In this document: one piece after another, positions 22,299-43,642 of the stretch
Layout of the letters: the number at the start of each line of letters is the position of its first letter
Position numbering within the stretch: the first letter of the stretch is position 1
From: Parvibaculum sp.
GTDB lineage: Bacteria > Pseudomonadota > Alphaproteobacteria > Parvibaculales > Parvibaculaceae
Direction of reading: 5' to 3'
Assembly: GCF_002684405.1 (NCBI RefSeq)
Contig: NZ_NYVD01000114.1
Span: 1-45,428, forward strand
Length of the DNA stretch: 45,428 bases
Program-made: the position numbers and the translations under genes
The notes under the pieces: generated by a model
The model's database searches: none
Told to the model about the DNA's origin: nothing
The model's input: the letters and a program-made list of their open reading frames with translations, nothing else

Positions 22299-22448
22299 CC
22301 TACCCATCCAAGGACGTTCGAGAAAGTCCGAGACGGGTCTAAATCTCAAACAAAATCAAACGCTTGAGTCCGGCAAGGTCCGACCTTGTCTTTGGGCTTC
22401 CGAATGTCGTGACGGCACATTTCTTCCTCTCTGTAAGGAGATACCGTC

Positions 22449-24287: not shown

Positions 24288-24299
24288 GACGGGAGCGAC

Positions 24300-25850: not shown

Positions 25851-25873
25851 GCGCACTCAGCAGGAGGGAAAAA

Positions 25874-26353: not shown

Positions 26354-26375
26354 CAGGAATGGATGGTGATCCGGG

Positions 26376-26406
26376 CGCGGCGCAAGTTTACTGCGCCGCG
26401 TCTTTT
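26376..26406 (+). terminator. Terminator after the MaoC gene
   Basis: A 9-bp perfect GC stem (CGCGGCGCA at 26376-26384, TGCGCCGCG at 26392-26400) with a 7-nt loop and TCTTTT tail lies 23 nt after the MaoC stop. It overlaps the last codons of the convergent AraC gene. Confidence 0.82.
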
Positions 26407-27317: not shown

Positions 27318-27511
27318 TTGTCCGTTTCCTCGGACCCGTCATCAACAGAAGCGGACAGTCGGTCAATGACGGGCAGCGCACTACCTTCTAGTTTGTTCTA
27401 GGTAAGATACGGAAAAAACGAACATAAAAACAAATAGAAAATACAAATAACAAGTAATTATTACCTGAAATGGCGGGTAGTATTTTTCTTGTTGAGGAGT
27501 CGGGTAGTAAA
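27318..27511. promoter_or_regulatory. Divergent AT-rich control region upstream of the dioxygenase operon
   Basis: From about 27385 the sequence turns strongly A/T-rich, with A-tracts (GGAAAAAACGAACATAAAA) unlike the GC-rich surroundings. Partial dyads are present: TTTGTTC and GAACATAA around 27393-27424, and AGGTAA near 27399 against TTACCT near 27461. Such curved, A-tract DNA is typical of AraC-regulated promoters. No convincing -35/-10 pair could be fixed by eye. Confidence 0.45.
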
Positions 27512-28873
27512 ATGCCAAATCCATACTCTGGTGGTCCAGATCGTAGCATGATTGATCTCGTCGGGGGCGATGGTGGTGAGATTAATCCTGCCATCTACGT
27601 GGATGAAGACATTTACCGGCGCGAGTTGGAGCAGGTGTTCGGTCGCAGTTGGTTGTTCCTCGCGCATGGCAGTCAGATTCCGGAAACGGGCGATTTCGTC
27701 TCCACATATATGGGGGAGGATCCCGTACTGGTCGTGCGCCAGAAGGATGGGAGCGTCGTTGCCTTTCTCAATCAGTGTCGCCATCGGGGTATGCGCATCT
27801 GTCGGACCGATTGTGGCAAGGCACGCTCTTTCACCTGCTCCTACCATGGCTGGGCCTATGACATTTCGGGCCGGCTCGTACATGTGCCTCTTGAGCAGGA
27901 GGCCTATCACGGAGAAATCGACAAGGACGCCTGGGGCCCTGTTCGTGTTCCCCGGATTGCATCCTTCCGTAATCTGATTTTCGGTTGCTGGGATGAGGCA
28001 GCCCCTGACCTCGAAACCTATATTGGCGATGCCGCCTGGTATATGGACGTCATGTTCGATCGTTCGGGTGCGGGCAGCGAGTTGATTTCGGGCGTGCACA
28101 AATGGGTTATCCCCTGCAACTGGAAGCTGGCGGCCGAGCAGTTTGCAAGTGATATGTACCACGCGCCCTATTCGCATCTTTCAGCGGTTCTGGCGAGCCT
28201 GCCAGACGACGCGTCCCCGGCGGATGCGGACTGGCCGCAAGAGGGAGCACAGTTTCGCGCGCCGCGTTTCGGTCATGGAACGGGCTTTTTCGCCAGCGAG
28301 CGCGGGTGGGAATTCAACGTCAACACGATGGGTCGAACAATCGTGGACTACCTCGCTGGAAAATATTCCGACGCGGCAGTCCAGCATCTGGGTGAGTTGA
28401 GAGGCCGCCAGATTACCGGACAACATATGACGATCTTCCCAAATTTCTCCTTCTTGCCGGGTATCAACGCGCTGCGCGTATGGCATCCGCGGGGGCCTCA
28501 GGAAATGGAAGTCTGGTCGATGATCCTGGTGGATAGCGATGCGCCGGACGAAGTGAAGGCCGCATATCGCGACCGGATCACGCGAATGTTCGGCACGAGC
28601 GGAATCTTTGAGCAGGACGATGGCGAAAACTGGGTGGAGGTCCAGAGAGTGTTGCGGGGGCACAAGACGCGCCAGACATCTCTCAACGCGTCGATGGGAA
28701 AGGGCCATACGGAAGATCGTTCGGAGTACCCAGGAATCGTGAGTGGCATGTTCTCCGAGGAAGCGGCAAGGGGGTTCTACCAGCATTGGGCCAGAATGAT
28801 GGCGGGCCAAAGTTGGGAGGAACTGGCGCAGGAACCGGCATCGGCCTGTGGAAAACCGGACAGTGGCAGCTAG
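27512..28873 (+). CDS. Rieske aromatic-ring dioxygenase, alpha subunit (biphenyl/toluene type)
   Basis: The 453-aa catalytic large subunit that, with the beta subunit, ferredoxin and reductase, adds O2 to an aromatic ring to give a cis-dihydrodiol. The Rieske [2Fe-2S] ligands are C89, H91, C109 and H112 (CRHRG...CSYHGW). The mononuclear iron site has bridging D214 with H217 and H222 (SDMYHAPYSH). Long stretches resemble biphenyl dioxygenase BphA1: VFLNQCRHRGMRICR-like, VHKWVIPCNWK, EQDDGENWVE. The histidine spacing is H-x4-H, one residue shorter than BphA1 of LB400 and equal to naphthalene dioxygenase. ATG 27512 has GAGGAG 12 nt upstream; ATG 27470 is the alternative. Confidence 0.93.
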   Translation: MPNPYSGGPDRSMIDLVGGDGGEINPAIYVDEDIYRRELEQVFGRSWLFLAHGSQIPETGDFVSTYMGEDPVLVVRQKDGSVVAFLNQCRHRGMRICRTDCGKARSFTCSYHGWAYDISGRLVHVPLEQEAYHGEIDKDAWGPVRVPRIASFRNLIFGCWDEAAPDLETYIGDAAWYMDVMFDRSGAGSELISGVHKWVIPCNWKLAAEQFASDMYHAPYSHLSAVLASLPDDASPADADWPQEGAQFRAPRFGHGTGFFASERGWEFNVNTMGRTIVDYLAGKYSDAAVQHLGELRGRQITGQHMTIFPNFSFLPGINALRVWHPRGPQEMEVWSMILVDSDAPDEVKAAYRDRITRMFGTSGIFEQDDGENWVEVQRVLRGHKTRQTSLNASMGKGHTEDRSEYPGIVSGMFSEEAARGFYQHWARMMAGQSWEELAQEPASACGKPDSGS

Positions 28874-28888
28874 GGCGGATCGAGCGAT

Positions 28889-29410
28889 ATGAACAACCGC
28901 ATTGACGTTGAAACTGCGCGCGAAGTTGAAGAGTTCCTCTTCGATGAGGCGGCCCTGCTCGACGACGGGCATTTCGATGAATGGCTCGCGCTCTTTGCGC
29001 CGGATATTCGCTACTTCGTTCCCGTGAGAACGACACGGAGCGCGCGCGAGCGTGACAAGGAATTCAGCGGAACGGCCGAGCTTGCCCATTTTGACGATGA
29101 CTACGAGGGGTTGAAGACGCGCATACGGCGTCTCGCAACCGGGTTTGCCTGGGCCGAGGATCCGCCATCTCGAACGAGACATTTTGTTTCCAACATTCGC
29201 CTGCGAGCGCTGGAGAACGACGAGTTCGAGGTGACGTCCAATACGCTCGTATACCGCAGCCGTCTTGAGCGGCAGGTGGATATGTTTTCCGGAAAGCGCG
29301 TGGATCGGCTGCGTCGGAGTGGTGGCGGCGGGAAGTTCGAAATCGCTGCGCGTACCGTATACCTCGACCACACTCTAATTCTGACCAACAGCATCAGTAT
29401 CTTCTTTTGA
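28889..29410 (+). CDS. Aromatic-ring dioxygenase, beta subunit
   Basis: 173 aa, the small structural subunit of the alpha3-beta3 dioxygenase, cone-shaped NTF2-like fold. Typical stretches are EVEEFLFDEAALLDDGHFDEWLALFAPDIRYFVPVR, RTRHFVSNIR and the end DHTLILTNSISIFF. It follows alpha by 15 nt. The stop overlaps the first possible start (TTG 29407) of the ferredoxin frame, and the ferredoxin ATG is at 29419. Confidence 0.93.
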   Translation: MNNRIDVETAREVEEFLFDEAALLDDGHFDEWLALFAPDIRYFVPVRTTRSARERDKEFSGTAELAHFDDDYEGLKTRIRRLATGFAWAEDPPSRTRHFVSNIRLRALENDEFEVTSNTLVYRSRLERQVDMFSGKRVDRLRRSGGGGKFEIAARTVYLDHTLILTNSISIFF

Positions 29411-29418
29411 GTTCTCGA

Positions 29419-29754
29419 ATGGCCTTTATTGCTTCCGTCGAAAAATCCGATTTACCGCTGGGCGCCATTCTCAAGGTCGAGACCGAGGTGGGGCCGGTCG
29501 CTGTGTGCAATGTCGATGGTGAGTTCTTCGCATTTTCCGACACATGCACGCATGGCAATTGGTCACTTTCGGAAGGTTGGCTAGATGGTCATGTAATCGA
29601 ATGCACACTGCACATGGCGAAGTTCGATATTCGTACCGGCTGTGTGCTCTCTCCGCCTGCGACTTGCCCACTCAAGACATTTGCGGTGGAAGACGTGGAT
29701 GGTGAAATCAGGATCGAATTACCGGCGCCTGATGAAGGTGGTGAGAAAAAATGA
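29419..29754 (+). CDS. Rieske-type ferredoxin of the dioxygenase
   Basis: A 111-aa electron carrier that passes electrons from the reductase to the alpha subunit. Cluster ligands are C43 and H45 (CTHG) and C62 and H65 (CTLH), in BphA3-like spacing. ATG 29419 is taken; a TTG at 29407 overlapping the beta-subunit stop (TTGA) is an alternative that adds four residues. It overlaps the reductase start by 4 nt, so the two are coupled. Confidence 0.93.
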   Translation: MAFIASVEKSDLPLGAILKVETEVGPVAVCNVDGEFFAFSDTCTHGNWSLSEGWLDGHVIECTLHMAKFDIRTGCVLSPPATCPLKTFAVEDVDGEIRIELPAPDEGGEKK

Positions 29755-30980
29755 CCGCCGGTACGTTGATCATTGGCGGTGGCCTCGCAGGTTTTGAATG
29801 CGCAAGACAGCTCCGTAACATGGGCTATAAGGACAGCGTCCGCATTCTTTCGTCGGAAAACCTGTTTCCTTATCAACGGCCACCCCTGTCAAAGGATGCG
29901 CTGAAGGCTACTGACCCAGACGTGCCATTTCTCTCGGAGGAGGCGGAGCTTCGTTCGTTGGAAATTGTCCTGCACAAAGGGCGGGAAGCGACCTCGATTG
30001 ATAAAGTACGGCGAGTCGTTACGACGTCCGACGGCGTCGAATATCCTTTCGACACCCTGGTAATCGCTACGGGTGCTCGCCCCAAGACAATCAGCGCTCC
30101 GGGTGCCGGTGCGACGGACTTTTACACGCTGCGCGATTGGGGTGATGCGCGTGTACTCGGTGATGCACTGCGCGAAGCAGAGAACGTCTGCGTAGTTGGG
30201 GGAGGCGTGATTGGGCTCGAAGTCGCGTGTGCCGCGGTCGGGCTTGGATGCAATGTCCGGGTCATAGAGCAGCAATCGCGGATCATGTCCCGATCACTAC
30301 CGGCGCAGATGGCGCAGTTGCTCCAGAGGCTTCTGGAGGAGAAGGGAATCGGCTTCGAGCTCGGGGCATCGATACTCCGCATCGATCGGAACAAATCGGT
30401 TGAGGCGATCTGCCTTGCGGACGGTACCTGCATTCCAGCCGATCTGACCTTTGTCGGGATAGGTGTGTCTCCGCGAGATGAGCTGGCCGAGGCGGCCGGG
30501 ATTGCCGTTTCCGATGGTGTGCTGGCAGACGAAAGAGGGCGAACATCGGACGCAAATGTCTTTGCCGTCGGTGATGCTGCCCGTTGGGGGGCGCATCCAG
30601 GAAAGCCGGGATGCCGTCACGAGACCTATAACGATGCGATGGCGCAGGCCCGGATCGTAGCGGGCGAAATCGCAGGGCAGGACTGTGCCGCGTCAATTCT
30701 CCCTACCTTCTGGTCGGAACAGGCGGAAATCTACATCCAGGGAGCGGGCGAGGCGCAGGGTGATGATCTTGTCCTGCGTCGGAGCAAAACTTCCGGCGCG
30801 GCTAGCTGTCTGGTGTTGAAAGAAGGCCGGGCAACAGGCGCTTTCGCGATCGGAGCACCATCGGATTTCGCCGCAATGAGACGCCTCATCGGCAAGCCGG
30901 TCGCTAATCCATCGGCATTGGCTGATTTGGAAGTGCAGCTACGGACTCTCGTACAAGAGATTGAAAGGGCAGCCGCATGA
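29751..30980 (+). CDS. Ferredoxin reductase (BphA4-like), FAD/NADH
   Basis: 409 aa, oxidoreductase that takes electrons from NADH to the Rieske ferredoxin. The FAD-binding motif IIGGGLAGFECA is at the N-terminus, the NAD-binding VVGGGVIGLEVAC in the middle, then the second FAD motif NVFAVGDAARW, and the C-terminal reductase domain. The length equals BphA4 and HcaD. It overlaps both neighbours (ATGA at start and end). Confidence 0.94.
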   Translation: MTAGTLIIGGGLAGFECARQLRNMGYKDSVRILSSENLFPYQRPPLSKDALKATDPDVPFLSEEAELRSLEIVLHKGREATSIDKVRRVVTTSDGVEYPFDTLVIATGARPKTISAPGAGATDFYTLRDWGDARVLGDALREAENVCVVGGGVIGLEVACAAVGLGCNVRVIEQQSRIMSRSLPAQMAQLLQRLLEEKGIGFELGASILRIDRNKSVEAICLADGTCIPADLTFVGIGVSPRDELAEAAGIAVSDGVLADERGRTSDANVFAVGDAARWGAHPGKPGCRHETYNDAMAQARIVAGEIAGQDCAASILPTFWSEQAEIYIQGAGEAQGDDLVLRRSKTSGAASCLVLKEGRATGAFAIGAPSDFAAMRRLIGKPVANPSALADLEVQLRTLVQEIERAAA

Positions 30981-31819
30981 ACTGGCTTGATGGGCATGTC
31001 GCGCTTGTAACAGGCGGCGCGTCGGGTCTGGGGCGCTCGATCGTGAAGCGTTTCGTTGAAGAAGGCGCACGCGTTGCGGTTCTTGATCGCTCTTCGGAAA
31101 AGCTGGAAGCGCTGACCCGGGAGTTTGGTGCGGAGGTTATCCCTTGCTGTGGTGATGTACGTAACTATGAAGACAATCTCTCTGCAGTCTCTAACGCTCT
31201 AAAGACTTTCGGTCGCCTGGACGCATTCATAGGCAATGCCGGCATTTGGGATTATCAGACAGCTCTTGCCGACATCGATCCGGATTGCCTTGACGAGGCC
31301 TTCAATGAGGTGATGGGGATCAACCTTCTGGGCGCGATGAAGGGAGCGAGGGCCGCGCTTCCCGCTCTTCTCGAAGCGCGGGGCAGTGTCGTTCTTACAC
31401 TTTCGAATGCCAGTTTCTACGTAAATGGCGGTGGCATTCTCTACACCGCCTCGAAGTTTGCTGGCGTTGGCGTCGTCCGCCAGCTTGCATTCGAATTTGC
31501 CCCGCATGTCCGGGTTAACGGTGTGGCCCCGGGGCCGCTGCAGTCGGATCTGCGCGGGCCCCAGAGTCTCGGTCTTGCCGATCAGTCGATTACTTCGCTG
31601 CCGATGGCAGACCTTGTCGCACAGCATTCACCCCTACCCGACATGCCGCGGGGCGAGGACTACGCCAGCGCCTATGTACTGCTGGCGTCATCACGGCATT
31701 CGCGCGCGACGACGGGCGCGATCCTCAATGTGGATGGTGGTGTCGGCGTGAGAGGTCTTGTCGAACCTGCTGGGGGAAATGGTCTGTTGGAACGATTTTG
31801 CGAGGGGAGCGGGGAATGA
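30977..31819 (+). CDS. cis-Dihydrodiol dehydrogenase (BphB/HcaB-like SDR)
   Basis: A 280-aa short-chain dehydrogenase that oxidises the cis-dihydrodiol to a catechol with NAD+. The cofactor motif TGGASGLG is at residues 12-19, NAG at 87-89, and the catalytic triad S143, Y156, K160 is offset by one from BphB (S142, Y155, K159). The length matches BphB. It is translationally coupled at both ends by ATGA overlaps. Confidence 0.92.
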   Translation: MNWLDGHVALVTGGASGLGRSIVKRFVEEGARVAVLDRSSEKLEALTREFGAEVIPCCGDVRNYEDNLSAVSNALKTFGRLDAFIGNAGIWDYQTALADIDPDCLDEAFNEVMGINLLGAMKGARAALPALLEARGSVVLTLSNASFYVNGGGILYTASKFAGVGVVRQLAFEFAPHVRVNGVAPGPLQSDLRGPQSLGLADQSITSLPMADLVAQHSPLPDMPRGEDYASAYVLLASSRHSRATTGAILNVDGGVGVRGLVEPAGGNGLLERFCEGSGE

Positions 31820-32700
31820 GCCTGGTCGAAAATTTGGGATATGCGGTTGTCGGCGTGAGTGATCAGCCGGCGTGGGATGATTTCCTCGTCCGGTATCTCG
31901 GGCTGATGAACGGTCCTCATGTCGGAGGCGGAGCAAAGGCCTATCGCATCGACGATTATGCGATGCGCATTGCAACCGAGCCCTCGCAGGACGACGACCT
32001 TTTGGCTCTCGGGTTCGAGGTGAAGGATGTGGACGAACTGTCTCATCTTGGTCAGATACTCGCCGCCAAGGGAATAGAAGCCGTGATGGGTGACGAGGAC
32101 GTTCTCAAGCGGCGCATGGTAGACGGGCTGCTCATTGCGGCAGACCCGGATGGAAACCGGTTGGAGTTTTTTCATACCGTGCGTCGCTGTCCCGAAGAAC
32201 CCTTCTGTTCGCCTCGCTTGCGGTCGCAATTCGTCACCGGTTCCCTGGGGCTGGGCCACGCTGTTCTCGCCACAAGCCGAATTGAGGAAATGCGGAATTT
32301 CTACTGCGAAGTACTCGGGTTCGAAGTCAGTGACTACATCGATGTGTCATTGGGGCCGGATATGACTGTCGAAGCCGTGTTCCTCCACTGCAATCCTCGC
32401 CATCATACGATTGCTCTGCTGCCGGCACCTTTACCGAAGCGTCTTGTGCATCTGATGCTTGAAGTGGAAAGCGTGGACGATGTGGGACGTCTCTACGATC
32501 AGGCGGAATCCGCCAAGGTGCCGGTGACCGGCAGTCTCGGCCGGCATAGCAACGACAGGATGCTCTCCTTTTACGTGGCAACGCCATCCGAATTCGAATT
32601 GGAGTTCGGATGCGACGGTCGCCTTATCGACGAAAAAACATGGGTGCCTGCCCGATATGCCTCGACCTCCATTTGGGGGCATGGACGCACTCGGCAGTAA
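31816..32700 (+). CDS. Extradiol ring-cleavage dioxygenase (BphC-like)
   Basis: 294 aa, two VOC-fold domains, opens the catechol ring next to the hydroxyls (meta cleavage). The Fe(II) ligands are H148 (GLGH), H212 and E263. The second-sphere histidines are in NPRHHTIAL (196/197) and GRHSND (H244), all as in BphC. ATG 31816 lies after GGGGAGCGGGG and overlaps the SDR stop (ATGA). Relatives act on 2,3-dihydroxybiphenyl and on bicyclic or steroid catechols, so the pocket does not name the substrate. Confidence 0.93.
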   Translation: MSLVENLGYAVVGVSDQPAWDDFLVRYLGLMNGPHVGGGAKAYRIDDYAMRIATEPSQDDDLLALGFEVKDVDELSHLGQILAAKGIEAVMGDEDVLKRRMVDGLLIAADPDGNRLEFFHTVRRCPEEPFCSPRLRSQFVTGSLGLGHAVLATSRIEEMRNFYCEVLGFEVSDYIDVSLGPDMTVEAVFLHCNPRHHTIALLPAPLPKRLVHLMLEVESVDDVGRLYDQAESAKVPVTGSLGRHSNDRMLSFYVATPSEFELEFGCDGRLIDEKTWVPARYASTSIWGHGRTRQ

Positions 32701-32762
32701 TTCAAACCGAACATATCCGGCCCGGCGAGGTCGACAGAACGAATATCGAAAGGAAACGCGAC

Positions 32763-33602
32763 GTGTCCTACACCTTCGAAGCAACGAGTCGTATGGCAGA
32801 ACTCGATGGGGTCTCTCTTCACTATCACGATATGGGAGAGGGGTTTCCGACCATCCTGATACATGGTGGGGGACCCGGCGCCACGGGCTGGAGCAATTAC
32901 CAGCGCAACGTAGAAGATCTTGCAAAAAAAGGCCGAGTCATTGTCATTGATCTGCCGAACTATGGGCGCTCCACCAAAGTGGGGCCGCAGCCTGGCCTGT
33001 TCCGCTACTACTCCGGCGTTGTGCGCGAATTCATGGACAAGATCGGCATTGAGAAAGCCAATTTTGTCGGTAATTCGCTTGGAGGCGGTACATCGCTGAA
33101 GTTCGCGCTCGACAATCCCGAGCGCACCGGCAAGGTCATCCTGATGGGCGCGGGAGGTGGCCTGCCTATCTTCTCCGCAATGCCCACGGAAGGACTGCGC
33201 CGGATGTTTGCCTATTATGCAGATGGCAAGCCGACGCGTGAGCGCCTGCGCGATTTCATCGACATGATGGTTTTTGACGGGTCGCAGATCTCGGATGAAC
33301 TGCTCGAGCAGCGCTACCAGAACTCGATTGATCCGGAAGTCGTCGCCGCGCCTTCCATCTTGCCTCGCAACGGCAAGCCGGCTATCGAAGACCTCTGGCG
33401 CGAGGATCTCGCAGGCCTGGAAAACGAGGTCCTTATTATCTGGGGGCGTGAGGATCGTGTCCTTCCTCTAGATTCTTCATTCATTTTGCTGAACCGGTTG
33501 CCGAACGCCAGACTGCACGTCTTCCCGAATTGTGGGCACTGGGCGCAATGGGAAAAGGCATCGGAGTTCAATGAACTCGTCGCCAATTTCATCGCCGCCT
33601 GA
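32763..33602 (+). CDS. meta-Cleavage product C-C hydrolase (BphD/MhpC-like)
   Basis: A 279-aa alpha/beta hydrolase that cuts the meta-cleavage product into 2-hydroxypenta-2,4-dienoate and a carboxylic acid. The oxyanion motif is HGGGPGATGWSNYQRN, the nucleophile S105 in GNSLGGG, the acid in WGREDRVLP and the histidine in NCGHWAQWE. The segment MPTEGLRRMF and VFDGSQISDELLEQRY is also reminiscent of HsaD of steroid catabolism. GTG 32763 is chosen for AAAGGA 8 nt upstream; ORF-style starts further left overlap the extradiol gene and lack homology. The carboxylic product depends on the unknown substrate. Confidence 0.9.
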   Translation: MSYTFEATSRMAELDGVSLHYHDMGEGFPTILIHGGGPGATGWSNYQRNVEDLAKKGRVIVIDLPNYGRSTKVGPQPGLFRYYSGVVREFMDKIGIEKANFVGNSLGGGTSLKFALDNPERTGKVILMGAGGGLPIFSAMPTEGLRRMFAYYADGKPTRERLRDFIDMMVFDGSQISDELLEQRYQNSIDPEVVAAPSILPRNGKPAIEDLWREDLAGLENEVLIIWGREDRVLPLDSSFILLNRLPNARLHVFPNCGHWAQWEKASEFNELVANFIAA

Positions 33603-33617
33603 GGAAGGCCTCAAGCC

Positions 33618-34403
33618 ATGCCGGAATCGTCCGCGAACATAGCAGATGCTGTTTACCAATCCCGAAGAACGGGGTTGTGCATTCCGCCCCTCAGTCTGAC
33701 CTACGGGCTTAGCGATGTGGATGAGGCCTATCGAGTGCAGGAAATTAATACGCGCCGTCGCATCGACGAGGGAGCGCGGCGCGTCGGCCGCAAGATCGGC
33801 CTCACTTCAAAAACCGTCCAGGCTCAATTGGGGGTGGACCAGCCTGATTTCGGGGTTCTGTTCGATGATATGCAGTTTGCAAGCGGTGAGACGCTTCCCA
33901 TGAAGCGTCTCATGCAGCCACGGATTGAGGCCGAGATCGCGTTTGTACTCGAACACGATCTGGTCGAGCCCAACACATCCTGGTCGGCCCTAGAAGGAGC
34001 GATCGGTTATGCAGTCGCTGCGGCAGAGGTCGTGGATAGTGCCATAGCTGACTGGAAAATCACTCTGGCTGATACCATTGCGGACAATGCGTCATGCGGT
34101 TTGTTCGTACTTGGAGAGCAGGAACGAAAGCTCGGTGACTTCGATCCGCGGCTTTGCAGCATGGTTTTGAGCCGTAATGGTGAGGAAGTCTCCGTCGGCA
34201 CCGGCGCGGCTTGTCTCGGCCATCCGCTTCGCGCGGTCAAGTGGCTAGCCGATATGTCGGTCAGGCTCGGCGATCCCCTCCGGCGCGGCGAAATTATTTT
34301 GTCCGGTGCGCTTGGTCCAATGGTCGATGTAGCGCCGAACGATACGTTCACCATCGAAGTGGGCGGCTTTGGCGCACTGACGGTTCCGTTCTCGGCGGAG
34401 TGA
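33618..34403 (+). CDS. mhpD: 2-Hydroxypenta-2,4-dienoate hydratase
   Basis: 261 aa, adds water to the dienoate to give 4-hydroxy-2-oxovalerate. Family segments are [42 protein letters not shown] and the end [17 protein letters not shown]. The metal-binding acidic residues in [11 protein letters not shown] are kept. TGAGGAAGG at the previous stop is the ribosome site for ATG 33618. It is the first gene of the standard dienoate lower pathway. Confidence 0.93.
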
Positions 34404-34411
34404 GGAGAACC

Positions 34412-35347
34412 ATGTCCGTCAAAGTTGCGATTATTGGTTCCGGAAATATCGGAACGGACTTGATGATCAAGGTCATGCGTCTCTCCAAAGTGTTGGAAGT
34501 GGGTGCCCTTGTTGGCATCGATCCGGAGTCCGACGGGTTGAAACGCGCCACTCGATTGGGTGTACCGGTGACTTCGGCGGGAGTTGAGGGGCTAGTGAGC
34601 ATGCCTGGCTTCTCTGAAATCGAAATCGTCTTCGACGCGACATCGGCGGGCGCGCATAAACACCATGACGAAGTCTTGCGCGCATACGGAAAGCGGGTAA
34701 TCGACCTTACACCTGCCGCGATCGGCCCCTATACGATTCCGCCGGTCAACCTGGACGACAATCTCGATGCACCGAATGTCAATATGGTGACTTGCGGTGG
34801 TCAGGCGACCATTCCAATGGTGGCGGCGGTCAACAGCGTGGCTCCGGTCCTCTATGCAGAGATCGTGGCCTCCATCGCCTCGCGGTCGGCTGGGCCGGGC
34901 ACACGTGCAAATATCGACGAGTTTACTGAAACGACTTCGAAAGCGATTGAGGTGGTCGGCGGCGCGCAACGCGGTAAGGCCATCATCGTTCTCAATCCGG
35001 CGGAACCGCCGCTCATCATGCGCGATACGGTCTACTGCCTGAGCGAAGACGCGGACGAGACGGCGGTAGAAGCCTCGATAGAAAGAATGGTGCTAGCCGT
35101 TCAGGCTTATGTGCCTGGGTACCGGTTAAAGCAGAAAGTGCAGTTCGAGCGCATCGGCCATAACAATCGCCTTCACATACCGGAAATGAACGGCGACTTC
35201 ACCGGGTTGAAGACGACAGTCTTTTTGGAAGTGGAAGGCGCTGCACACTACCTGCCGGCTTATGCAGGAAATCTGGACATTATGACCTCTGCTGCGTTGA
35301 AAACTGCAGAACGAATCGTTGCGCGTAGTTCCTCGGAGAAAGCGTGA
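34412..35347 (+). CDS. mhpF: Acetaldehyde dehydrogenase (CoA-acylating)
   Basis: 311 aa, converts acetaldehyde, channelled from the aldolase, to acetyl-CoA with NAD+. Rossmann motif [11 protein letters not shown] (residues 7-17); catalytic cysteine C128 in [13 protein letters not shown] 34412 directly follows GTGAGGAGAACC, so the longer frame from 34211 is not used. It forms a complex with the aldolase encoded next, with which it overlaps by one base (TGATG). Confidence 0.95.
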
Positions 35348-36384
35348 TGAGAGATTTCAGGCCAGCGCGCAAACTCTACATTCAGGACGTCACGCTGCGC
35401 GATGGCATGCACGCGATCCGCCACCAATACGGTCTGGCGCATGTTTGTGAGATAGCAAAAGCGCTGGATGAAGCCAAGGTCGACGCGATCGAAGTGTCTC
35501 ATGGTGACGGGTTGGCGGGATCGAGTTTCAACTATGGATTTGGTGCGCACACGGATTGGGACTGGATCGGCGCGGTTGTTGAGTCGGTAAAACATGCGAC
35601 GGTGACGACGCTGCTTTTGCCGGGTATCGGAACCGTCCACGATCTCCGCCATGCTTTTGAAATGGGGGTTCGTTCGGTTCGCGTAGCAACGCATTGTACC
35701 GAAGCCGATATATCCAGACAGCACATCGAAGCGGCGCGGGAAGCCGGGATGGACGTCTCCGGCTTCCTGATGATGAGTCACATGAGTCCACCGAAGAGGC
35801 TGGCCGAGCAGGCCAAGCTGATGGAAACATATGGTGCGCATTGCGTCTATGTGACCGACAGCGGCGGCGCGCTGACAATGAAAGGCGTGGCGGAGAGATT
35901 TCGTGCCTATGGCGACGTACTGAAGCCCGAGACCGAGCGCGGCATTCATGCTCATCACAATCTGAGTCTCGGTGTGGCGAACTCCATCACGGCGGTCGAG
36001 AACGGCGCGATCCGGGTCGATGCATCTCTGGCAGGGATGGGCGCAGGCGCGGGTAATGCTCCTTTGGAAGCCTTTATAGCCGCGGCAGATGTCTATGGCT
36101 GGGATCACGGCACCGACCTCTTTCGTCTGATGGACGCTGCCGACCAATTGGTGCGTCCCCTGCAGGACCGACCCGTCCGCGTAGACCGTGAGACATTGAG
36201 TCTCGGTTATGCAGGCGTCTATTCGAGTTTCTTGCGCCATGCGGAAAAGGCGGCGGAAACCTATGACCTTGATGTCAGAGACATCCTTGTCGAGCTGGGT
36301 CGACGGCGAATGGTGGGTGGCCAGGAAGACATGATCGTCGACGTTGCCCTCGACCTGAAGGAAGCCAGCCGTCAACGGAAATAG
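35347..36384 (+). CDS. mhpE: 4-Hydroxy-2-oxovalerate aldolase
   Basis: 345 aa, TIM-barrel class II aldolase that splits 4-hydroxy-2-oxovalerate to pyruvate and acetaldehyde. Metal and catalytic residues are in [14 protein letters not shown] at the N-terminus and [12 protein letters not shown] (HxH ligands). The C-terminal domain ([20 protein letters not shown]) is the DRE-TIM communication domain that docks to the acylating dehydrogenase. ATG 35347 overlaps the previous stop. Confidence 0.95.
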
Positions 36385-36400
36385 CCGGGGAAGAAAACAG

Positions 36401-36904
36401 ATGACCGAAAAGCGCACAGAATTTGGATCGCTCGACAACTTCCAGAAGGGAGGCATCGACATTGTCGATGATGATCCGAGGAACTACGTGTTCTCGAACA
36501 TTTACGAGACTGCGGCGCGCTCCGAGCCCTATGAACGTGTCTGCGCGGCGAAGAATTTCGAATATGTGATCGAGGTCGCTCGGGCCGAGGGCCAGTCGGG
36601 GTGGTATGCGTGCAGGCATGACGAATTCGTGGTCTGCATGGATGGCGAAGTGGACGTCCATCTCGTCAAGCTCGATGCGCCTGAGGGACTGGTCGACTCG
36701 TCTCTCGACGGTGCGCAAAGGCTCGAAGAGCTACCCGACAATCAACGAAAGATGGGGCGTGTCAGGCTCAAGCGGGGTCACATGGCGCTCTTGCCTGTTG
36801 GCGCCGCCTACAGGTTCGAGGCGTCGAGCCCGGCTGTCGTGATCTTCCAAACTATTCAGGGCGCAGAGACGGTTGAGAAATGGGCAGAGATTTGTCTGGC
36901 CTGA
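36401..36904 (+). CDS. hapC: Hydroquinone 1,2-dioxygenase, small subunit
   Basis: 167 aa (about 18 kDa), a cupin-like protein of the HapC/PnpC type. Together with the 345-aa partner encoded 42 nt downstream it matches the 18 + 38 kDa heterotetramers known for hydroquinone dioxygenases of 4-hydroxyacetophenone and 4-nitrophenol degraders. Features seen are FVVCMDGEVDVHLVKLD and KRGHMALLPVGAAYRFEA, beta-sandwich repeats. The small subunit is needed for assembly and does not itself hold the iron in the known structure. Start ATG 36401 after GGGGAAGAAAACAG. The first gene after the aldolase (16 nt gap). Confidence 0.85.
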   Translation: MTEKRTEFGSLDNFQKGGIDIVDDDPRNYVFSNIYETAARSEPYERVCAAKNFEYVIEVARAEGQSGWYACRHDEFVVCMDGEVDVHLVKLDAPEGLVDSSLDGAQRLEELPDNQRKMGRVRLKRGHMALLPVGAAYRFEASSPAVVIFQTIQGAETVEKWAEICLA

Positions 36905-36946
36905 GTCTGACGCCGTGTAATTCAAAGAGACCGGAGGAGAACAATC

Positions 36947-37984
36947 ATGGCTATGAAAGACAATGATACCGGAGATCTGAAGGTCGCCAATCCGCGCGGA
37001 TTGCCGGTGGTATCGGATTTCGAAATTGGCGCAATCGATAATGAAACCGGTTACAGATCATTTCGTGTCGGCTCCTTCTCATTTCGCCGCGATGAGTACT
37101 TTGTTCGCATTTCGTGGCCTGGCGGAAACCATCAGATGCCGATCGACGCTTTTCTTCGTGCAATGATGCGCGACGTGGCGTGGGGTTTTTTCTACGGTAC
37201 GGTGAACTTCGATGGCGTGTTCGGCACGACAAACTACTACGGCGAGGTGGAAGTTTTTGTCGGTGCAATGAATGATGCCTACACATCGGCGGGTCGCGAA
37301 CTCATCGAACGCTTTCGGTCGGAAGAGCTGATTGATGTGTTCAGGCAGATGGTCGATGACTGGACGAATGAATCCTATGACCCCTTTGCCGCACCCATGG
37401 AAACGGGGACGCCTTGGGGAACCAAGAAGGGCTCAAATAATGAAGCGGTTAGCCGCCAGCGTGTTACCGCACAGCGCATGGTCGGCTTGGCCGGCGACGC
37501 GCCAAAGCGTAGCGACGAAACAGGATATCCGGTCAACCGTGCTTTCCGCGATGTCGGGCAGGATGAACCCGAAGTGCACGCCGAGCCGGGATTCGAGGGG
37601 GAAGTAGCAGCCTTCAACCTGTTTGCCTATCTCTCCCGATCGGACGTCACATGGAATCCATCGGTCTGCTCTGTGGTGCGGGATAGTCTGTTCTGCCCAA
37701 CGACCGAGGAGTTTATTTTGCCGGTTGAGCATGGAAACGACCGGGTCGAGTGGTTTTTGCAGCTCTCCGATGAAATTGTTTGGGATGTAAAGGACGGCAA
37801 GACAGGTGCGCCGCGTGCCGTCGTCACAATGCGTGCCGGAGATGTTGCATGCATGCCGGCCGATATTCGTCATCAGGGATACTCCAACAAGAGAGCGATG
37901 CTCCTTGTATGGGAGAACGGCTCGCCGGCAATTCCGGAGATGGTGCGTTCGGGAACGGCACCCGTTGTGCCTGTCCGTTGGTAG
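36947..37984 (+). CDS. hapD: Hydroquinone 1,2-dioxygenase, large (iron) subunit
   Basis: 345 aa (about 38 kDa). Opens hydroquinone to 4-hydroxymuconic semialdehyde with O2. The known PnpCD iron ligands (His256, Asn258, Glu262, His303) map with a constant shift of six to H262, N264, E268 and H309 here (VEHGNDRVEW and DIRHQGYS). This is the main evidence for the call. ATG 36947 has CCGGAGGAGAACAATC upstream. It follows the small subunit and precedes the aldehyde dehydrogenase that would use its product. The ligand numbers are from memory of the published structure. Confidence 0.88.
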   Translation: MAMKDNDTGDLKVANPRGLPVVSDFEIGAIDNETGYRSFRVGSFSFRRDEYFVRISWPGGNHQMPIDAFLRAMMRDVAWGFFYGTVNFDGVFGTTNYYGEVEVFVGAMNDAYTSAGRELIERFRSEELIDVFRQMVDDWTNESYDPFAAPMETGTPWGTKKGSNNEAVSRQRVTAQRMVGLAGDAPKRSDETGYPVNRAFRDVGQDEPEVHAEPGFEGEVAAFNLFAYLSRSDVTWNPSVCSVVRDSLFCPTTEEFILPVEHGNDRVEWFLQLSDEIVWDVKDGKTGAPRAVVTMRAGDVACMPADIRHQGYSNKRAMLLVWENGSPAIPEMVRSGTAPVVPVRW

Positions 37985-37998
37985 AGGGTACCGCCAAA

Positions 37999-39471
37999 GT
38001 GCAAACACGATTGTTTATCGAAGGCGAGTTCGTGGATGCCCTTCACGGGGCGACCATGCCGGTGTTCAACCCCTTCAACAATAGTCAGATATGCGAGGTT
38101 TCTAGCGCTCAGGCGGAAGATATAGACCGAGCGGTTGAAGCGGCTCGGAGAGCGTTTTCCGAGTGGAAGCGTGTGGACGCTGCTGAACGCGGGGAATTGT
38201 TGCTTAAGCTCGCCGTGGCCATCGAGCAAAATGCCGAGGAACTCGCGTTGCTGGAATCCCGCGATACCGGACACCCTCTGCGCGACGCAAGGAACCTGGA
38301 CGTTCCGCGCACGGCACGTTGTTTCCGGTACTTCGGTGGAATGGCGGACAAGCTCGAGGGCTTTCTTCCGCCCGTTTATCCAGGGTTCCTGAACTATGTT
38401 CAGAGGGAACCGATTGGCATTGTCGGGCAGATCGTGCCTTGGAATTTCCCGCTTATGTTCACGAGCTGGAAGCTGGCGCCTGCGCTTGCGGCGGGAAACT
38501 GTGTCGTAATGAAGCCGGCGGAACTGACGCCGCTGAGCAGCCTCAGGATTGCAGAGCTGATTAACGAGGCGGGATTCCCACCAGGGGTTGTGAACATTCT
38601 TCCGGGTTTTGGTTCGACTGCGGGTGTCCGGCTCGCAGAGCATCCGGATATCGGGAAGGTGTCTTTCACGGGCTCGACGGAGACCGGTCGCAACATCGTT
38701 CGGATGTCGGCAGGAAATCTCAAGAAGCTTCAGCTTGAGCTTGGCGGCAAGGGAGCGAATATCGTTTTTGACGACGCGGATATCGATAAGGCGGTCAAGG
38801 GATCTGCCTCGGCAATCTTTCACAATCAGGGGCAGGCCTGCATTGCTGGTTCGCGCCTCATTCTCCATGAGGCGATAACGGACGAATTTCTGGAGAAATT
38901 CATACCGCTCGCGGAATCCATTCGTCTTGGCGATCCGTTGGATCCGTTGACGGAAATGGGGCCGCTCACCTCCAAGGCGCACCAGGAGAGAGTGATCGAC
39001 TACTGCAAGATTGCGGTAGAGGAGGGCGGAGAAATTTTGACCGGCGGAAAAGTGCCGGATCATCCTGCCTTGGCGAATGGGTGTTTTGTGGAGCCGACAG
39101 TCGTTCGTGCAAGGCCAACGGACAGGGCTTGTCAGGAGGAAGTCTTCGGCCCGTTTGTCTCTGTGATGACATTTGCGTCTGCTGAAGAAGCTCTCACAAT
39201 AGCAAATGACGTGTCCTACGGTCTGGGTTCAGGGATCTGGACAAGCGATCTGCAACGCGCTCATCGTGTTGCAGGTGAGCTCCATGCCGGCATGGTCTGG
39301 ATCAATGCCTACAAGATTGTGCACCCCGGGTCTCCCTTCGGAGGCGTGGGGCAATCCGGATATGGCCGGGAAATGGGTTTTGAGGTGATGCGCGAATACA
39401 CCCAGCCGAAATCGGTTTGGGTCAATGTCGATGCAAATATCCCGGACTTCTATCAGCGTCCCGCGACATGA
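37999..39471 (+). CDS. Aldehyde dehydrogenase, probable 4-hydroxymuconic semialdehyde dehydrogenase
   Basis: A 490-aa NAD(P)+-dependent ALDH superfamily member. The glutamate is in LELGGKGANIVFDD, the catalytic cysteine in NQGQACIAGSR, and the PWNFP motif in VGQIVPWNFPLM. Position right after the hydroquinone dioxygenase indicates oxidation of 4-hydroxymuconic semialdehyde to maleylacetate, as HapE-type enzymes do. GTG 37999 is proposed: AGAGGG lies 10 nt before it and family homology starts there, while the open frame to 37780 only overlaps hapD. It overlaps the CoA-transferase start (ATGA). Confidence 0.88.
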   Translation: MQTRLFIEGEFVDALHGATMPVFNPFNNSQICEVSSAQAEDIDRAVEAARRAFSEWKRVDAAERGELLLKLAVAIEQNAEELALLESRDTGHPLRDARNLDVPRTARCFRYFGGMADKLEGFLPPVYPGFLNYVQREPIGIVGQIVPWNFPLMFTSWKLAPALAAGNCVVMKPAELTPLSSLRIAELINEAGFPPGVVNILPGFGSTAGVRLAEHPDIGKVSFTGSTETGRNIVRMSAGNLKKLQLELGGKGANIVFDDADIDKAVKGSASAIFHNQGQACIAGSRLILHEAITDEFLEKFIPLAESIRLGDPLDPLTEMGPLTSKAHQERVIDYCKIAVEEGGEILTGGKVPDHPALANGCFVEPTVVRARPTDRACQEEVFGPFVSVMTFASAEEALTIANDVSYGLGSGIWTSDLQRAHRVAGELHAGMVWINAYKIVHPGSPFGGVGQSGYGREMGFEVMREYTQPKSVWVNVDANIPDFYQRPAT

Positions 39472-40352
39472 GGGTAGGCAATATTGAAGATGGCAGGATC
39501 ATGCCTCTGGACGAAGCGGTGCGGCGCTTTGTGAATGATGGCGACCACCTCGCCCTGGAAGGTTTCACGCATCTTATTCCATTCGCCGCCGGGCATGAGA
39601 TAATCCGGCAAGGCAGGAAGAATCTCACTCTTTATCGGATGACGCCCGATCTGATCTACGATCAGATGATTGGTATGGGCTGTGCAAAAAAGCTCGTATT
39701 TTCCTGGGGAGGGAATCCGGGTGTCGGGTCCCTGCACAGATTCCGCGATGCCGTAGAACGGGGCTGGCCACACAAGATTGAGCTCGAAGAGCGTAGCCAT
39801 GCCGATTTGGCAAACGCCTATGTCGCCGGCGCGAGTAATTTGCCTTTTGCCGTTATGCGCGGGTATGTAGCGTCCGACCTCGCGACGCATAACCCGCGTA
39901 TCGCGTTCATCTCATGCCCTTTCACGGGTGAGAAGCTCGCAGCGGTTCCCGCCGTGAGGCCGGATATCACGATTATCCATGCGCAGAAGGCGGATCGCAG
40001 GGGAAATGTCCTGCTCAAGGGGATACTCGGTGTCCAGAAAGAAGCGGTTCTCGCAGCAAAAAGAACAATCGTGACGGTCGAAGAAATCGTCGATGAGCTC
40101 AGCGCCCCCTCTAACGCCTGTATCCTGCCGCATTGGGTTCTAAGTGCCGTTTGCCCGGTACGGTATGGCGCATGGCCGTCATATGCAGAAGGGTATTACG
40201 AGCGAAGCAACAGATTCTATCAGGCATGGGACCCGATTTCGAAGGACCGCGAGGCTTTTACTAGCTGGATGGAGGAGTTCGTTCTCGGCACTACGGGGTG
40301 TGACGAATTTTTGCAAAAGCTGCCGGAAGCGCGCGACGAGGTGACAGCGTGA
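39468..40352 (+). CDS. Class I CoA-transferase family, subunit A
   Basis: 294 aa. The family pattern is EGFTHLIPFAAGHEIIRQGRKNLTLYRMTPD near the start, GNPGVGSLHRFRDA, and DITIIHAQKADRRGNVLLKG. It pairs with the next gene. Likely reaction: 3-oxoadipate + succinyl-CoA to 3-oxoadipyl-CoA. The A+B lengths (294 + 256) are also close to the steroid ring-cleaving hydrolase IpdAB, so the assignment to 3-oxoadipate rests on context. ATG 39468 overlaps the ALDH stop; the longer frame lies inside it. Confidence 0.82.
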   Translation: MRVGNIEDGRIMPLDEAVRRFVNDGDHLALEGFTHLIPFAAGHEIIRQGRKNLTLYRMTPDLIYDQMIGMGCAKKLVFSWGGNPGVGSLHRFRDAVERGWPHKIELEERSHADLANAYVAGASNLPFAVMRGYVASDLATHNPRIAFISCPFTGEKLAAVPAVRPDITIIHAQKADRRGNVLLKGILGVQKEAVLAAKRTIVTVEEIVDELSAPSNACILPHWVLSAVCPVRYGAWPSYAEGYYERSNRFYQAWDPISKDREAFTSWMEEFVLGTTGCDEFLQKLPEARDEVTA

Positions 40353-41122
40353 TGTTTGCCAACGATTTCACTTCTTCGGAAATGATGGCGGTGGCCGCGT
40401 CGCGCCTGTTGTCTGATAGAGCCGTTTGTTTTGTCGGAATCGGATTGCCGTCCAAGGCCGCGAATCTGGCTCGCCTGACGCATGCACCTGACGTGACCTT
40501 GATTTACGAGTCCGGTCCAATCGGTGCAAAGCCCGATACTCTTCCCTTGTCTATTGGGGATGGGGACCTTTCGCTGACCGCCGATACGGTCGTGCCGACG
40601 CATGAGATATTCCGATACTGGCTTCAAGGCGGACGGATCGATGTCGGGTTTCTGGGCGCGGCGCAAATCGATCGCTACGCCAATATCAACACGACGGTGA
40701 TCGGGGATTATGAGTCACCGAAAGTCAGGCTCCCTGGCGCTGGCGGCGCGCCGGAGATTGCGGCCTCCGCCAAAGAGGTCCTGATCGTTCTCAAGCAAAG
40801 TCGAGCGGCTTTCGTCGAGAAGCTGGATTTTGTCACGTCTGTCGGTCATCTCGATGGGGGCGATGCGAGAATAAACGCCGGGCTCCCTGGCGCCGGGCCG
40901 ACCGCGGTGGTTACGGATATTGGCATACTTACGCCGGATCCGATCACGCGTGAACTGCAGCTATCGAGCCTTCATTCCGGACGCACGCTCGACGAAGCGC
41001 GGGACGCCACGGAATGGGATCTCAAGCTTGCCGACAGCATCGCGGAAACGCCGCCACCCACCGAGAGGGAGATTTCTGCACTCAGGGACCTCGAGCGGCG
41101 GACAGCGGACCGAAATCGATGA
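40352..41122 (+). CDS. Class I CoA-transferase family, subunit B
   Basis: 256 aa. CFVGIGLPSKAANLARL and the glutamate E53 in IYESGPIG match the catalytic glutamate position of class I CoA-transferases (forms the glutamyl-CoA intermediate). Its retention argues for a transferase rather than an IpdAB-type hydrolase, which is reported to work differently. ATG 40352 overlaps the A-subunit stop by one base, with a GTG at 40349 as alternative. The stop overlaps the next start (ATGA). Confidence 0.82.
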   Translation: MFANDFTSSEMMAVAASRLLSDRAVCFVGIGLPSKAANLARLTHAPDVTLIYESGPIGAKPDTLPLSIGDGDLSLTADTVVPTHEIFRYWLQGGRIDVGFLGAAQIDRYANINTTVIGDYESPKVRLPGAGGAPEIAASAKEVLIVLKQSRAAFVEKLDFVTSVGHLDGGDARINAGLPGAGPTAVVTDIGILTPDPITRELQLSSLHSGRTLDEARDATEWDLKLADSIAETPPPTEREISALRDLERRTADRNR

Positions 41123-42201
41123 CGATCAGAAACTCCTTTGCCTGGCAGTCGTTCGATGTTGTGGCACTTCCGCAGCGTGTTCTTTTCGGGCGCGGCAGGG
41201 TTGCTGAAATTGAACGGGAAGTCGCACGTCTTGATGCAAAGCGAGCCTGGGTGTTGTCGACCCCGGAGCAGGCAGCGCAGGCGGAAATGCTTGTCGAAGC
41301 GCTTGGAGGCAGAGCATACGGACTTTCTTCCGGTGCACGTATGCACACCCCGGTGGAGGCGACAAACAAAGAGCTTCGCTTGATTGAAGAAAAAGGCGCC
41401 GATGTGCTTGTCGCATTTGGCGGGGGGTCATCTATCGGACTCGCAAAAGCACTGGCGCTACGAACAGGGTTGCCGCAGATCGCAGTTCCAACGACATTCG
41501 CCGGTTCGGAAATGACGCCTATTCTCGGGCAGACGGAGAACGGCGTCAAAACAACGCTACGTGATGGGCGGCTGTTGCCGCAAACCGTCATTTACGATCC
41601 GGATTTCGTCGAGACGTTGCCACCCGAGGTGGCCGGACCTTCTGGTATGAATGCAGTCGCTCACGCTGTAGAAGCGCTATATGCCGAGCAGAGAAATCCT
41701 GTTGTGAGTATGTGGGCCGAAGCTGCAATCGGCGCTTTAGGGGTGGCTCTTCCTCGCATCATGGCAAACCCGTCCGACCGCGACGCGTGGACGGAGGCGC
41801 TCTATGGAGCCTGGCTTGCGGGGGCATGTCTCGGTTCCGTCGGGATGGCTATTCATCACAAATTGTGCCATGTGCTGGGGGGGGCTTTCGATCTTCCGCA
41901 TGCAGATGTTCATAGCCTGTTGATCCCCTATTCCGCGGCTTACAACAGAGAAGACGCGCCTGATGCGATGGGTCGGATTGCGCGGGCTTTGAACGTTGCG
42001 GATGCTCCGATGGGGCTCTTCCAACTCATGCGTAAAGTGGCAAGGATAAAAAGCCTGTCTGAACTGGGGCTGACGCTCGCGGATATTGATCTCGCCGCAA
42101 GCATGGCAACGGAAAACCCCTACTACAATCCGCGCCCCGTAGATCGGGAAAGCGTCAGGGATCTGCTGAGGAAGGCTCATCGGGGCGATGCCCCTGTTTA
42201 A
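41119..42201 (+). CDS. Maleylacetate reductase
   Basis: 360 aa, iron-containing alcohol-dehydrogenase fold. Reduces maleylacetate to 3-oxoadipate with NAD(P)H. Family signatures are FGGGSSIGLAKALALR, PTTFAGSEMTPILGQTENGVK and the metal-site histidines in HHKLCHVLGGAFDLPHADVH. The length and motifs match maleylacetate reductases rather than general alcohol dehydrogenases. ATG 41119 overlaps the CoA-transferase stop (ATGA); longer frames overlap that gene. It supplies the step between the ALDH and CoA-transferase. Confidence 0.92.
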   Translation: MTIRNSFAWQSFDVVALPQRVLFGRGRVAEIEREVARLDAKRAWVLSTPEQAAQAEMLVEALGGRAYGLSSGARMHTPVEATNKELRLIEEKGADVLVAFGGGSSIGLAKALALRTGLPQIAVPTTFAGSEMTPILGQTENGVKTTLRDGRLLPQTVIYDPDFVETLPPEVAGPSGMNAVAHAVEALYAEQRNPVVSMWAEAAIGALGVALPRIMANPSDRDAWTEALYGAWLAGACLGSVGMAIHHKLCHVLGGAFDLPHADVHSLLIPYSAAYNREDAPDAMGRIARALNVADAPMGLFQLMRKVARIKSLSELGLTLADIDLAASMATENPYYNPRPVDRESVRDLLRKAHRGDAPV

Positions 42202-42212
42202 GGGAGAAACCA

Positions 42213-43406
42213 ATGTGTCATGTTGTCGGTCAGGCGATCGAAAGGGCAATCGAAAGGCGTCAGTTTCTGGCCGGTTTGGGGGCCGCATCGACGCTGGTAC
42301 TAGGCTCTCCTGCCAGCGCAAAGGAAATGGAAGAGCAGAGGAAAAGGATCAATGCCTCCCAAGCGGAAGCAAGCCAATTTAACACAAGGCTCATTCTGCT
42401 TGGAACGGCGGGAGGCCCTGTGTTCTGGCCGGGCACCAACCGGCACGGGATTGCATCCGCTGTCGCTGTTGGGGACGCGCTCTATCTCGTGGATTGCGGG
42501 GCGGGCGCGGGACGCAGGTTGCAGGAGGCACAAGGCCCTTCGACAAACGGAATTGGCGTCCTTCGGGATGTGAGAGCTCTATTTTTTACGCACCTGCACT
42601 CGGACCATATCGTCGATTATCCGGCATTGACGCTTTTTGGAATATTCGACGGATCGCATGCGAAGGTCCCATTGAAGGTCTTCGGCCCAGGAAGAAGAAA
42701 TGAAATGGAGCCTGTTTTCTCGCCGGCGGGCGCCGCGCCTCATGACCTTCCCGTCGTCAACCCCGAGAACCCGACCCCTGGCACTAAGGACATGGCAGGA
42801 TATCTGTATCAGGCGTTTGCAACGGACATAAACGATCGGATTCGAGACAATCATCGGCCCGATCCTTCGACGATGATCGATGTTCACGACATAGAGCTGC
42901 CCGAAATTCCCGGCTTCGAAAGTCCAAACAAGACACCGGAGCCGGAGATGGCTCCCTTCAAAGTCTTCGAAGATGATCGGGTCCGGGTATCTGCGACATT
43001 GGTAAATCACTTTCCCGTTTGGCCTGCTTTCGCCTTCCGTTTCGATACCGACGATGGGTCCATCGTATTTTCAGGGGACACGGCGGTAAGTGAAAACCTT
43101 ATTCGTCTGGCGAAAGGGGCTGACATACTTGTGCATGAGGTGATTGTTGCGGATTGGGTGCGCAGCATGTTTCCCCAACCGCGTAGCGAAAATGATGATG
43201 CTATTCTCAATCACCTCCTGAGCGCACATACAGCGGTAGAAGATGTCGGCACCGTTGCCGCCCGTGCTGAAGTTTCCACCCTTGTCCTTAGTCATATCGT
43301 TCCAGGCAATGCCAGCAATGAGGATCTGGCGCCAGCGCAGAAAGGATTTGAGGGTAAACTTGTGATTGGCGAAGACCTGATGCAATTGGGTGTTGGAAGG
43401 CGGTAA
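42213..43406 (+). CDS. Tat-exported metallo-beta-lactamase-fold hydrolase
   Basis: 397 aa. The N-terminus carries a twin-arginine signal: E-R-R-Q-F-L-A-G (R15-R16) followed by a hydrophobic stretch and A-S-A (about residue 36). The mature part has the zinc motif HLHSDH (H127, H129, D131, H132), later FSGDTAV (D) and LSHIVPG (H). The fold is that of RNase Z/arylsulfatase-like hydrolases. A periplasmic location is unusual for catabolic ring cleavage, so it may hydrolyse an ester, lactone or sulfate of the substrate before uptake (inference). AAGGGAGAAACCA precedes ATG 42213, 11 nt after the reductase stop. Confidence 0.85.
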   Translation: MCHVVGQAIERAIERRQFLAGLGAASTLVLGSPASAKEMEEQRKRINASQAEASQFNTRLILLGTAGGPVFWPGTNRHGIASAVAVGDALYLVDCGAGAGRRLQEAQGPSTNGIGVLRDVRALFFTHLHSDHIVDYPALTLFGIFDGSHAKVPLKVFGPGRRNEMEPVFSPAGAAPHDLPVVNPENPTPGTKDMAGYLYQAFATDINDRIRDNHRPDPSTMIDVHDIELPEIPGFESPNKTPEPEMAPFKVFEDDRVRVSATLVNHFPVWPAFAFRFDTDDGSIVFSGDTAVSENLIRLAKGADILVHEVIVADWVRSMFPQPRSENDDAILNHLLSAHTAVEDVGTVAARAEVSTLVLSHIVPGNASNEDLAPAQKGFEGKLVIGEDLMQLGVGRR

Positions 43407-43553
43407 TCAAACTGACCATCCGGGTGGGGAGGGATTGTATGTTTCTGGCGTGGATGGAAACGCCCCTCCAGAAGGTGCGAAATGAGTGATCGTTCTTTTC
43501 CGCGAAATTAAGCCGTGCATATGGAGCACCGTCGGCTGACTGCATCCACATGC

Positions 43554-43596
43554 ACCGACGTTGCTCGGAGTGAATTATCTTCAGTGCGTCGGTTTT
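43554..43596 (+). terminator. Possible terminator at the end of the catabolic run
   Basis: ACCGACG (43554-43560) and CGTCGGT (43587-43593) are perfect 7-bp complements, with a 26-nt loop and TTTT following. The long loop makes it weak. It lies 148 nt after the metallo-hydrolase stop, before the convergent LysR gene. The rest of the 236-nt gap shows no gene I can support. Confidence 0.35.
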
Positions 43597-43642
43597 CCGC
43601 GAGGCCCTACGGGGTATGTTTCCGGTCAAGCTAAGGTTGAGC

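Follow-up and report, generated by a model that had tools for sequence, protein, structure and literature searches.

A metallo-β-lactamase-fold hydrolase with a predicted Tat signal at the end of an island-borne aromatic catabolic operon in Parvibaculum

The window analysed here, a 45,428-nt contig of Parvibaculum sp. (NZ_NYVD01000114.1), carries a run of aromatic catabolic genes that ends in a gene for a metallo-β-lactamase (MBL)-fold protein (Table 1). The genes in the first part of this run, which extends from a Rieske dioxygenase through extradiol ring cleavage to an aldolase and comprises a full lower pathway, lie on one strand with gaps of no more than 68 bp, except for the stretch holding the ferredoxin ORF, and the gaps in the operon are mostly below 70 bp. 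The second part resembles the hydroquinone operon of Sphingobium cloacae, with identities of 61% for the small and 74% for the large dioxygenase subunit, 68% for the semialdehyde dehydrogenase, and 53% for the maleylacetate reductase. These values bear out the catabolic gene calls of a first-pass annotation of the sequence, which had also stated that the block lacks a transporter; none is present among the annotated genes of the catabolic block. We infer that a two-ring compound, whose hydroxylated ring ends as hydroquinone, is a plausible substrate of the operon. The CoA-transferase subunits encoded within the run gave no match to the Sphingobium hydroquinone locus at 1e-8 and scored below the NCBIfam cut-offs, so they seemingly belong to a different transferase lineage.

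Table 1. Features of the window discussed in the text, with their positions and the evidence for each.
Feature	Position	Strand	Evidence
tRNA-Phe, anchoring the variable segment on its left	22223..22298	+	ARAGORN; synteny with G012 ends at 22299
Variable genomic island: catabolic genes, MBL gene last	22300..43642	.	Homology break vs G012; GC
Truncated integrase, arm DNA-binding domain only	22449..22700	+	PF13356, E 9.6e-24
Rieske dioxygenase (HcaEF-like, ferredoxin, reductase), dihydrodiol dehydrogenase, extradiol dioxygenase, C-C hydrolase, hydratase, acetaldehyde dehydrogenase, aldolase	27470..36384	+	NCBIfam
Hydroquinone 1,2-dioxygenase small and large subunits (PnpC/PnpD-like)	36401..37984	+	PF18191 (large subunit); Sphingobium cloacae identity
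4-Hydroxymuconic semialdehyde dehydrogenase-like gene	37996..39471	+	PF00171; Sphingobium cloacae identity
CoA-transferase subunit A and B genes	39474..41122	+	PF01144
Maleylacetate reductase-like Fe-ADH, directly upstream of the MBL gene	41119..42201	+	PF00465/PF25137; Sphingobium cloacae identity
MBL-fold metallo-hydrolase gene, 397 aa	42213..43406	+	Intact ORF; Pfam; AF2 model; Foldseek
Tat-type signal peptide (predicted), residues 1-36	42213..42320	+	Sequence; motif and homologue comparison; consensus in PMC1182353
Recurrent MC start of the MBL signal	42213-42218	+	
HLHSDH metal-binding motif (H127, H129, D131, H132)	42591..42608	+	Invariant, 60/60 homologues
H266, predicted metal ligand	43008..43010	+	Invariant, 60/60 homologues
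D289 of SGDT motif, predicted bridging metal ligand	43077..43079	+	Invariant, 60/60 homologues
H361, predicted metal ligand	43293..43295	+	Invariant, 60/60 homologues

The MBL gene is an intact ORF with an ATG start codon. Its start follows the stop of the maleylacetate reductase-like gene (42201) by 11 nt, a gap that contains a GGGAG ribosome-binding-like site, and no promoter or terminator candidate was scored at this junction. The ORF, its spacing, and the RRQFL twin-arginine motif near its N-terminus are all as the first-pass annotation had described them. In the literature, we found no study on this gene family, nor on such a cluster in Parvibaculum.

Comparison with a close relative, G012, delimits the segment in which these genes reside. 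Homology between the two sequences ends at 22299 of the window and is restored at 43643; the flanking blocks are 91-96% identical, and in between the relative has a wholly different stretch of roughly 11.7 kb. At the cut-offs used, G012 gave no hit for either the MBL or the hydroquinone dioxygenase. The catabolic genes are therefore carried on a single variable segment, whose last cargo gene is the MBL gene. The GC content of this island is about 0.55-0.59, versus 0.59-0.68 otherwise. The segment is anchored on the left by a tRNA-Phe gene, which is followed by a truncated integrase gene; at the right junction, no attR repeat of the end of this tRNA gene was found with up to three mismatches allowed. 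By eye, the segment that occupies the tRNA-Phe site in the relative contains TonB receptor-, MFS-, and RND-like ORFs.

The MBL gene ends about 237 bp from the right junction, where synteny with the relative resumes, and it has the lowest GC3 of the gene run (0.555). Given this position at the island edge and this low GC3, the gene may be unrelated cargo. It would then encode an exported enzyme that is read through from the operon but serves some other purpose, for instance to scavenge an unrelated ester or antibiotic-like compound or to render it harmless. The operon-like spacing and the ribosome-binding-like site speak against such a separate origin and for a role within the operon, and the neighbourhoods of related genes, described below, bear on both readings.

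The metallo-hydrolase identity proposed in the first-pass annotation agrees with Pfam, in which the protein scores above the gathering thresholds of PF12706 and PF00753. An AlphaFold2 model, computed from an input alignment of 55 sequences with five rows from annotated records left out, has a mean pLDDT of 90.8 and a pTM of 0.90. In addition to the predicted ligands listed in Table 1, E309 and H339 are invariant among the 60 aligned homologues, and H266 and D289 are separated by only 23 residues. The combination of an HxHxDH motif with further H, D, and H ligands and an alpha-beta/beta-alpha fold, seen with Pfam, the model, and Foldseek, is that of the metallo-β-lactamase superfamily. Within this superfamily, the protein is a hydrolase of the ElaC/AtsA neighbourhood, and the two metals of its site are probably zinc. 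In NCBIfam it falls below every curated cut-off; the best models are those of RNase Z, GntH, and a cyclic-nucleotide phosphodiesterase, and the protein is far below the cut-off in each case.

The solved structure most similar to the model in Foldseek is 8gyg, an arylsulfatase from Pseudoalteromonas atlantica (E 7.4e-24, 22% identity), followed by PNGM-1 and RNase Z, both at about 20% identity. The same arylsulfatase ranks first by sequence (phmmer, E 4.8e-19) and by profile (E 3.1e-46), and it shares with the window protein the MBL fold and the HxHxDH site. As AtsA itself has been placed close to the ElaC clade (PMC5066984), the protein could be regarded as an AtsA-type arylsulfatase (SulfAtlas family S4) that liberates a phenolic substrate by periplasmic hydrolysis of its sulfate ester. 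However, assignment to S4 is based on at least 30% identity to AtsA (P28607) together with the HxHxDH motif (PMC5066984), and the window protein has the motif but an identity of 22%, measured against the related 8gyg in place of AtsA. Furthermore, an exported MBL protein from Novosphingobium (L016) fits 8gyg much better than the window protein does (114.7 versus 71.6 bits). The window protein also differs from 8gyg in having a longer segment that separates the two blocks of the match (residues 178-268, versus 120-170 in 8gyg) and in the residues after the GDT strand, which are HE instead of SE. We consider a sulfatase of this type improbable here.

With RNase Z/ElaC proteins (1y44, 2cbn, TIGR02651), the window protein has in common the HxHxDH and GDT motifs and the HE motif after the GDT strand. 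Nevertheless, an RNase Z assignment was rejected, as the protein reached 75.9 bits (E 2.8e-21) against a cut-off of 292.95 for TIGR02651 and 112.4 against 363 for PRK00055, missed the other RNase Z models as well, and lacks in the alignment any counterpart of residues 154-202 of 1y44 (about 49 residues). This stretch lies between the third and fourth metal motifs, which we take to be the place of the tRNA-binding exosite. Unlike RNase Z, moreover, the window protein bears a Tat-type signal. GntH, the MBL protein of the guanitoxin cluster, was likewise rejected on its score (85.2 bits against a cut-off of 333 for NF041257), although this model matched all 55 members of alignment A4. The metagenomic PNGM-1 (6j4n) has the common MBL fold across the whole domain at about 20% identity. 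By description, the window protein can also be likened to Mblp01 and Mblp02, two metagenomic MBL phosphatases that are reported to be active on phosphorylated compounds; they have PF12706 and predicted signal peptides, and their closest fold is E. coli ZipD/RNase Z (PMC6584368).

The first 36 residues of the MBL protein, MCHVVGQAIERAIERRQFLAGLGAASTLVLGSPASA, are followed by KE and have the features of a Tat-type signal peptide, with the twin arginines at positions 15-16, RRQFL at 15-19, and an AxA cleavage motif (ASA) at 34-36. Compared with the published consensus (S/T)RRxFLK and the pattern RR.[FGAVML][LITMVF] (PMC1182353), the signal fits except for E in place of S/T and A in place of K. 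The Tat call was made from the motif pattern, i.e., a twin-arginine motif, a moderately hydrophobic h-region, and an AxA site; among the 21 window proteins examined, this is the only one with a Tat motif in its first 40 residues. The signal is kept in the nearest relatives, including those from P. sedimenti (72% identity), Bradyrhizobium (59%), and Cupriavidus metallidurans pMOL30 (59%), as well as Caballeronia, Burkholderia, and Paraburkholderia, and this conservation argues that it is not due to chance. Export is supported by this signal in the closest relatives and by the presence of a TatC gene in the genome (E 4.9e-69). The enzyme thus probably acts outside the cytoplasm, as the first-pass annotation had anticipated from the motif, and we are fairly confident that it is an exported two-metal hydrolase. 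Its signal starts with Met-Cys (MCH), and Met-Cys precedes the twin arginines in 29 of 48 Tat-type homologues, versus 3 of 25 other Tat-like ORFs from the same loci.

The signal could nonetheless be unused, and the protein could be a cytoplasmic enzyme of the pathway, e.g., a lactonase acting on a side product. This would be in line with a supported actinobacterial clade of homologues that has no signal at all and is presumably cytoplasmic. In the close relatives, however, the twin-arginine signal has been retained despite divergent N-terminal surroundings, and both the motif and the AxA site are near the consensus (PMC1182353), which makes a cytoplasmic location of the window protein very unlikely.

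On these grounds we propose that the MBL gene would be co-transcribed as the last gene of the island-borne aromatic operon, and that its product, a member of the ElaC/arylsulfatase-like branch of the superfamily, would fold and take up its metals in the cytoplasm before being exported by the Tat system. In the periplasm, the enzyme may cleave an ester-like bond (of a carboxylic ester or lactone, a sulfate ester, or a phosphoester) in a compound that occurs alongside the substrate of the pathway or ahead of it, and the freed aromatic would then enter the cytoplasm for ring cleavage. An ester-type bond is suggested by the nearest solved folds, all of which are hydrolases, the first (8gyg) and the third (RNase Z) acting on bonds of this type. 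In the way it works, an analogue would be methyl parathion hydrolase, an MBL enzyme that is exported and frees a phenol, p-nitrophenol, for the hydroquinone pathway. No entry for this enzyme appeared among the 17 PDB matches of the window protein up to E 0.1, and it therefore belongs to a different MBL subfamily. If the MBL protein does feed the operon, the natural growth substrate would not be the free aromatic but a masked compound, whether an ester, a lactone, a sulfate, or a phosphate, and this would change the choice of pollutant or plant product to be tested.

The distribution of related genes provides a further view of this proposal. A single-sequence scan of genome contigs and viral contigs gave no MBL relatives, while an alignment-based scan (alignment A2) gave at least 465 relatives among at least 596 matched stretches. 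The best 80 loci were kept, and the 75 longer than 10 kb were used for neighbourhood counts. We found no characterised member of this widespread subfamily. Several of the neighbourhoods are catabolic. In Cupriavidus, Caballeronia, and Paraburkholderia, relatives adjoin catabolic genes (hydrolase and fumarylacetoacetase-family), some of them also a porin and a periplasmic TctC binding protein, and at four Burkholderiales loci the MBL gene is preceded by fumarylacetoacetase-family, alpha/beta-hydrolase, and amidohydrolase genes. On the C. metallidurans megaplasmid, genes for an acyl-CoA ligase and an FAD monooxygenase belong to the same cluster, in which the MBL gene lies next to a porin-like ORF and the gene for a TctC binding protein. 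Meta-cleavage genes are located near the MBL gene in Streptomyces, Nocardioides, and Arthrobacter. Overall, meta-cleavage-type genes occur within 9 kb at only 13 of the 75 loci, a raw count without a random-locus baseline in which the neighbours were called by homology to a reference set picked partly from the same loci.

Among the 75 loci, taken from the best 80 of at least 465, no other locus has a hydroquinone dioxygenase or maleylacetate reductase neighbour, and no MBL gene is present in either of the two hydroquinone operons that were inspected (Sphingobium and Burkholderia). The copy in P. sedimenti, 72% identical to that of the window, lies in a different accessory region without this operon, and a Rieske-type dioxygenase gene occurs within about 9 kb after it. 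A complete phage-type integrase is found near this copy, and with the Rieske-type dioxygenase it indicates that both Parvibaculum copies are situated in accessory regions. The P. sedimenti gene (L017/L009) is preceded by a DUF1302 ORF in which the match is confined to the C-terminal portion of that domain.

These observations bear directly on the suggestion of the first-pass annotation that the enzyme unmasks the growth substrate before uptake. The suggestion stands as a possibility, but is weakened by the lack of hydroquinone-gene neighbours at the other loci, by the two hydroquinone operons without an MBL gene, by the low number of loci with meta-cleavage-type neighbours (13 of 75), and by the different location of the P. 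sedimenti copy. The occurrence of the gene without this operon in P. sedimenti and many other settings, and the absence of a conserved partnership with hydroquinone genes, instead favour separate cargo at the island edge, whereas its recurrence beside other catabolic clusters in unrelated bacteria argues against it and for a catabolic role. Whether the MBL gene is tied to the substrate of the operon or merely travels with it is, in our judgement, a nearly balanced question. More specifically, that it performs a peripheral step for this aromatic pathway is a tentative assignment that we put slightly short of an even chance, and that it is an exported enzyme with an unrelated purpose seems possible, if somewhat more doubtful.

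The homologues appear in two cellular layouts. Fifty of the 75 loci encode a protein called exported (44 with Tat-like and six with Sec-like signals) and 25 encode one that is not, although one of the latter (L021) has a Tat motif by eye and was probably miscalled. As the starts of the homologues are our own ORF calls, some signals may have been misread. A metabolite:H+ symporter gene is present within two genes at one of the 50 exported loci, compared with 20 of the 25 non-exported ones. On the tree, the core of the signal-less group, consisting of actinobacterial relatives, forms one supported clade, and the signal and symporter traits changed about three times each; a test of the signal-symporter pair had only two to three independent pairs and was not significant. 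The contrast, which is suggestive, rests on about one evolutionary event. The pattern is in keeping with hydrolysis outside the cytoplasm as well as within it. The first-pass annotation's picture of hydrolysis outside the cytoplasm without an importer fits the exported loci that lack a symporter, but this pattern is essentially a single evolutionary split.

It is conceivable, though we consider it rather unlikely as a whole, that these proteins form an undescribed MBL subfamily that carries out peripheral catabolic steps on masked compounds of a single class. Its layouts would be interchangeable, with either a Tat or other signal and no importer, or a cytoplasmic enzyme with a metabolite:H+ symporter and a LysR regulator, and in the Parvibaculum window it would feed an aromatic ring-cleavage operon. 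A widespread subfamily in two cellular layouts becomes directly testable. In Arthrobacter-type genomes (e.g., L035 and L046), a trio of genes for a LysR regulator, a signal-less MBL protein, and a metabolite:H+ symporter recurs, and this trio is apparently a catabolic unit.
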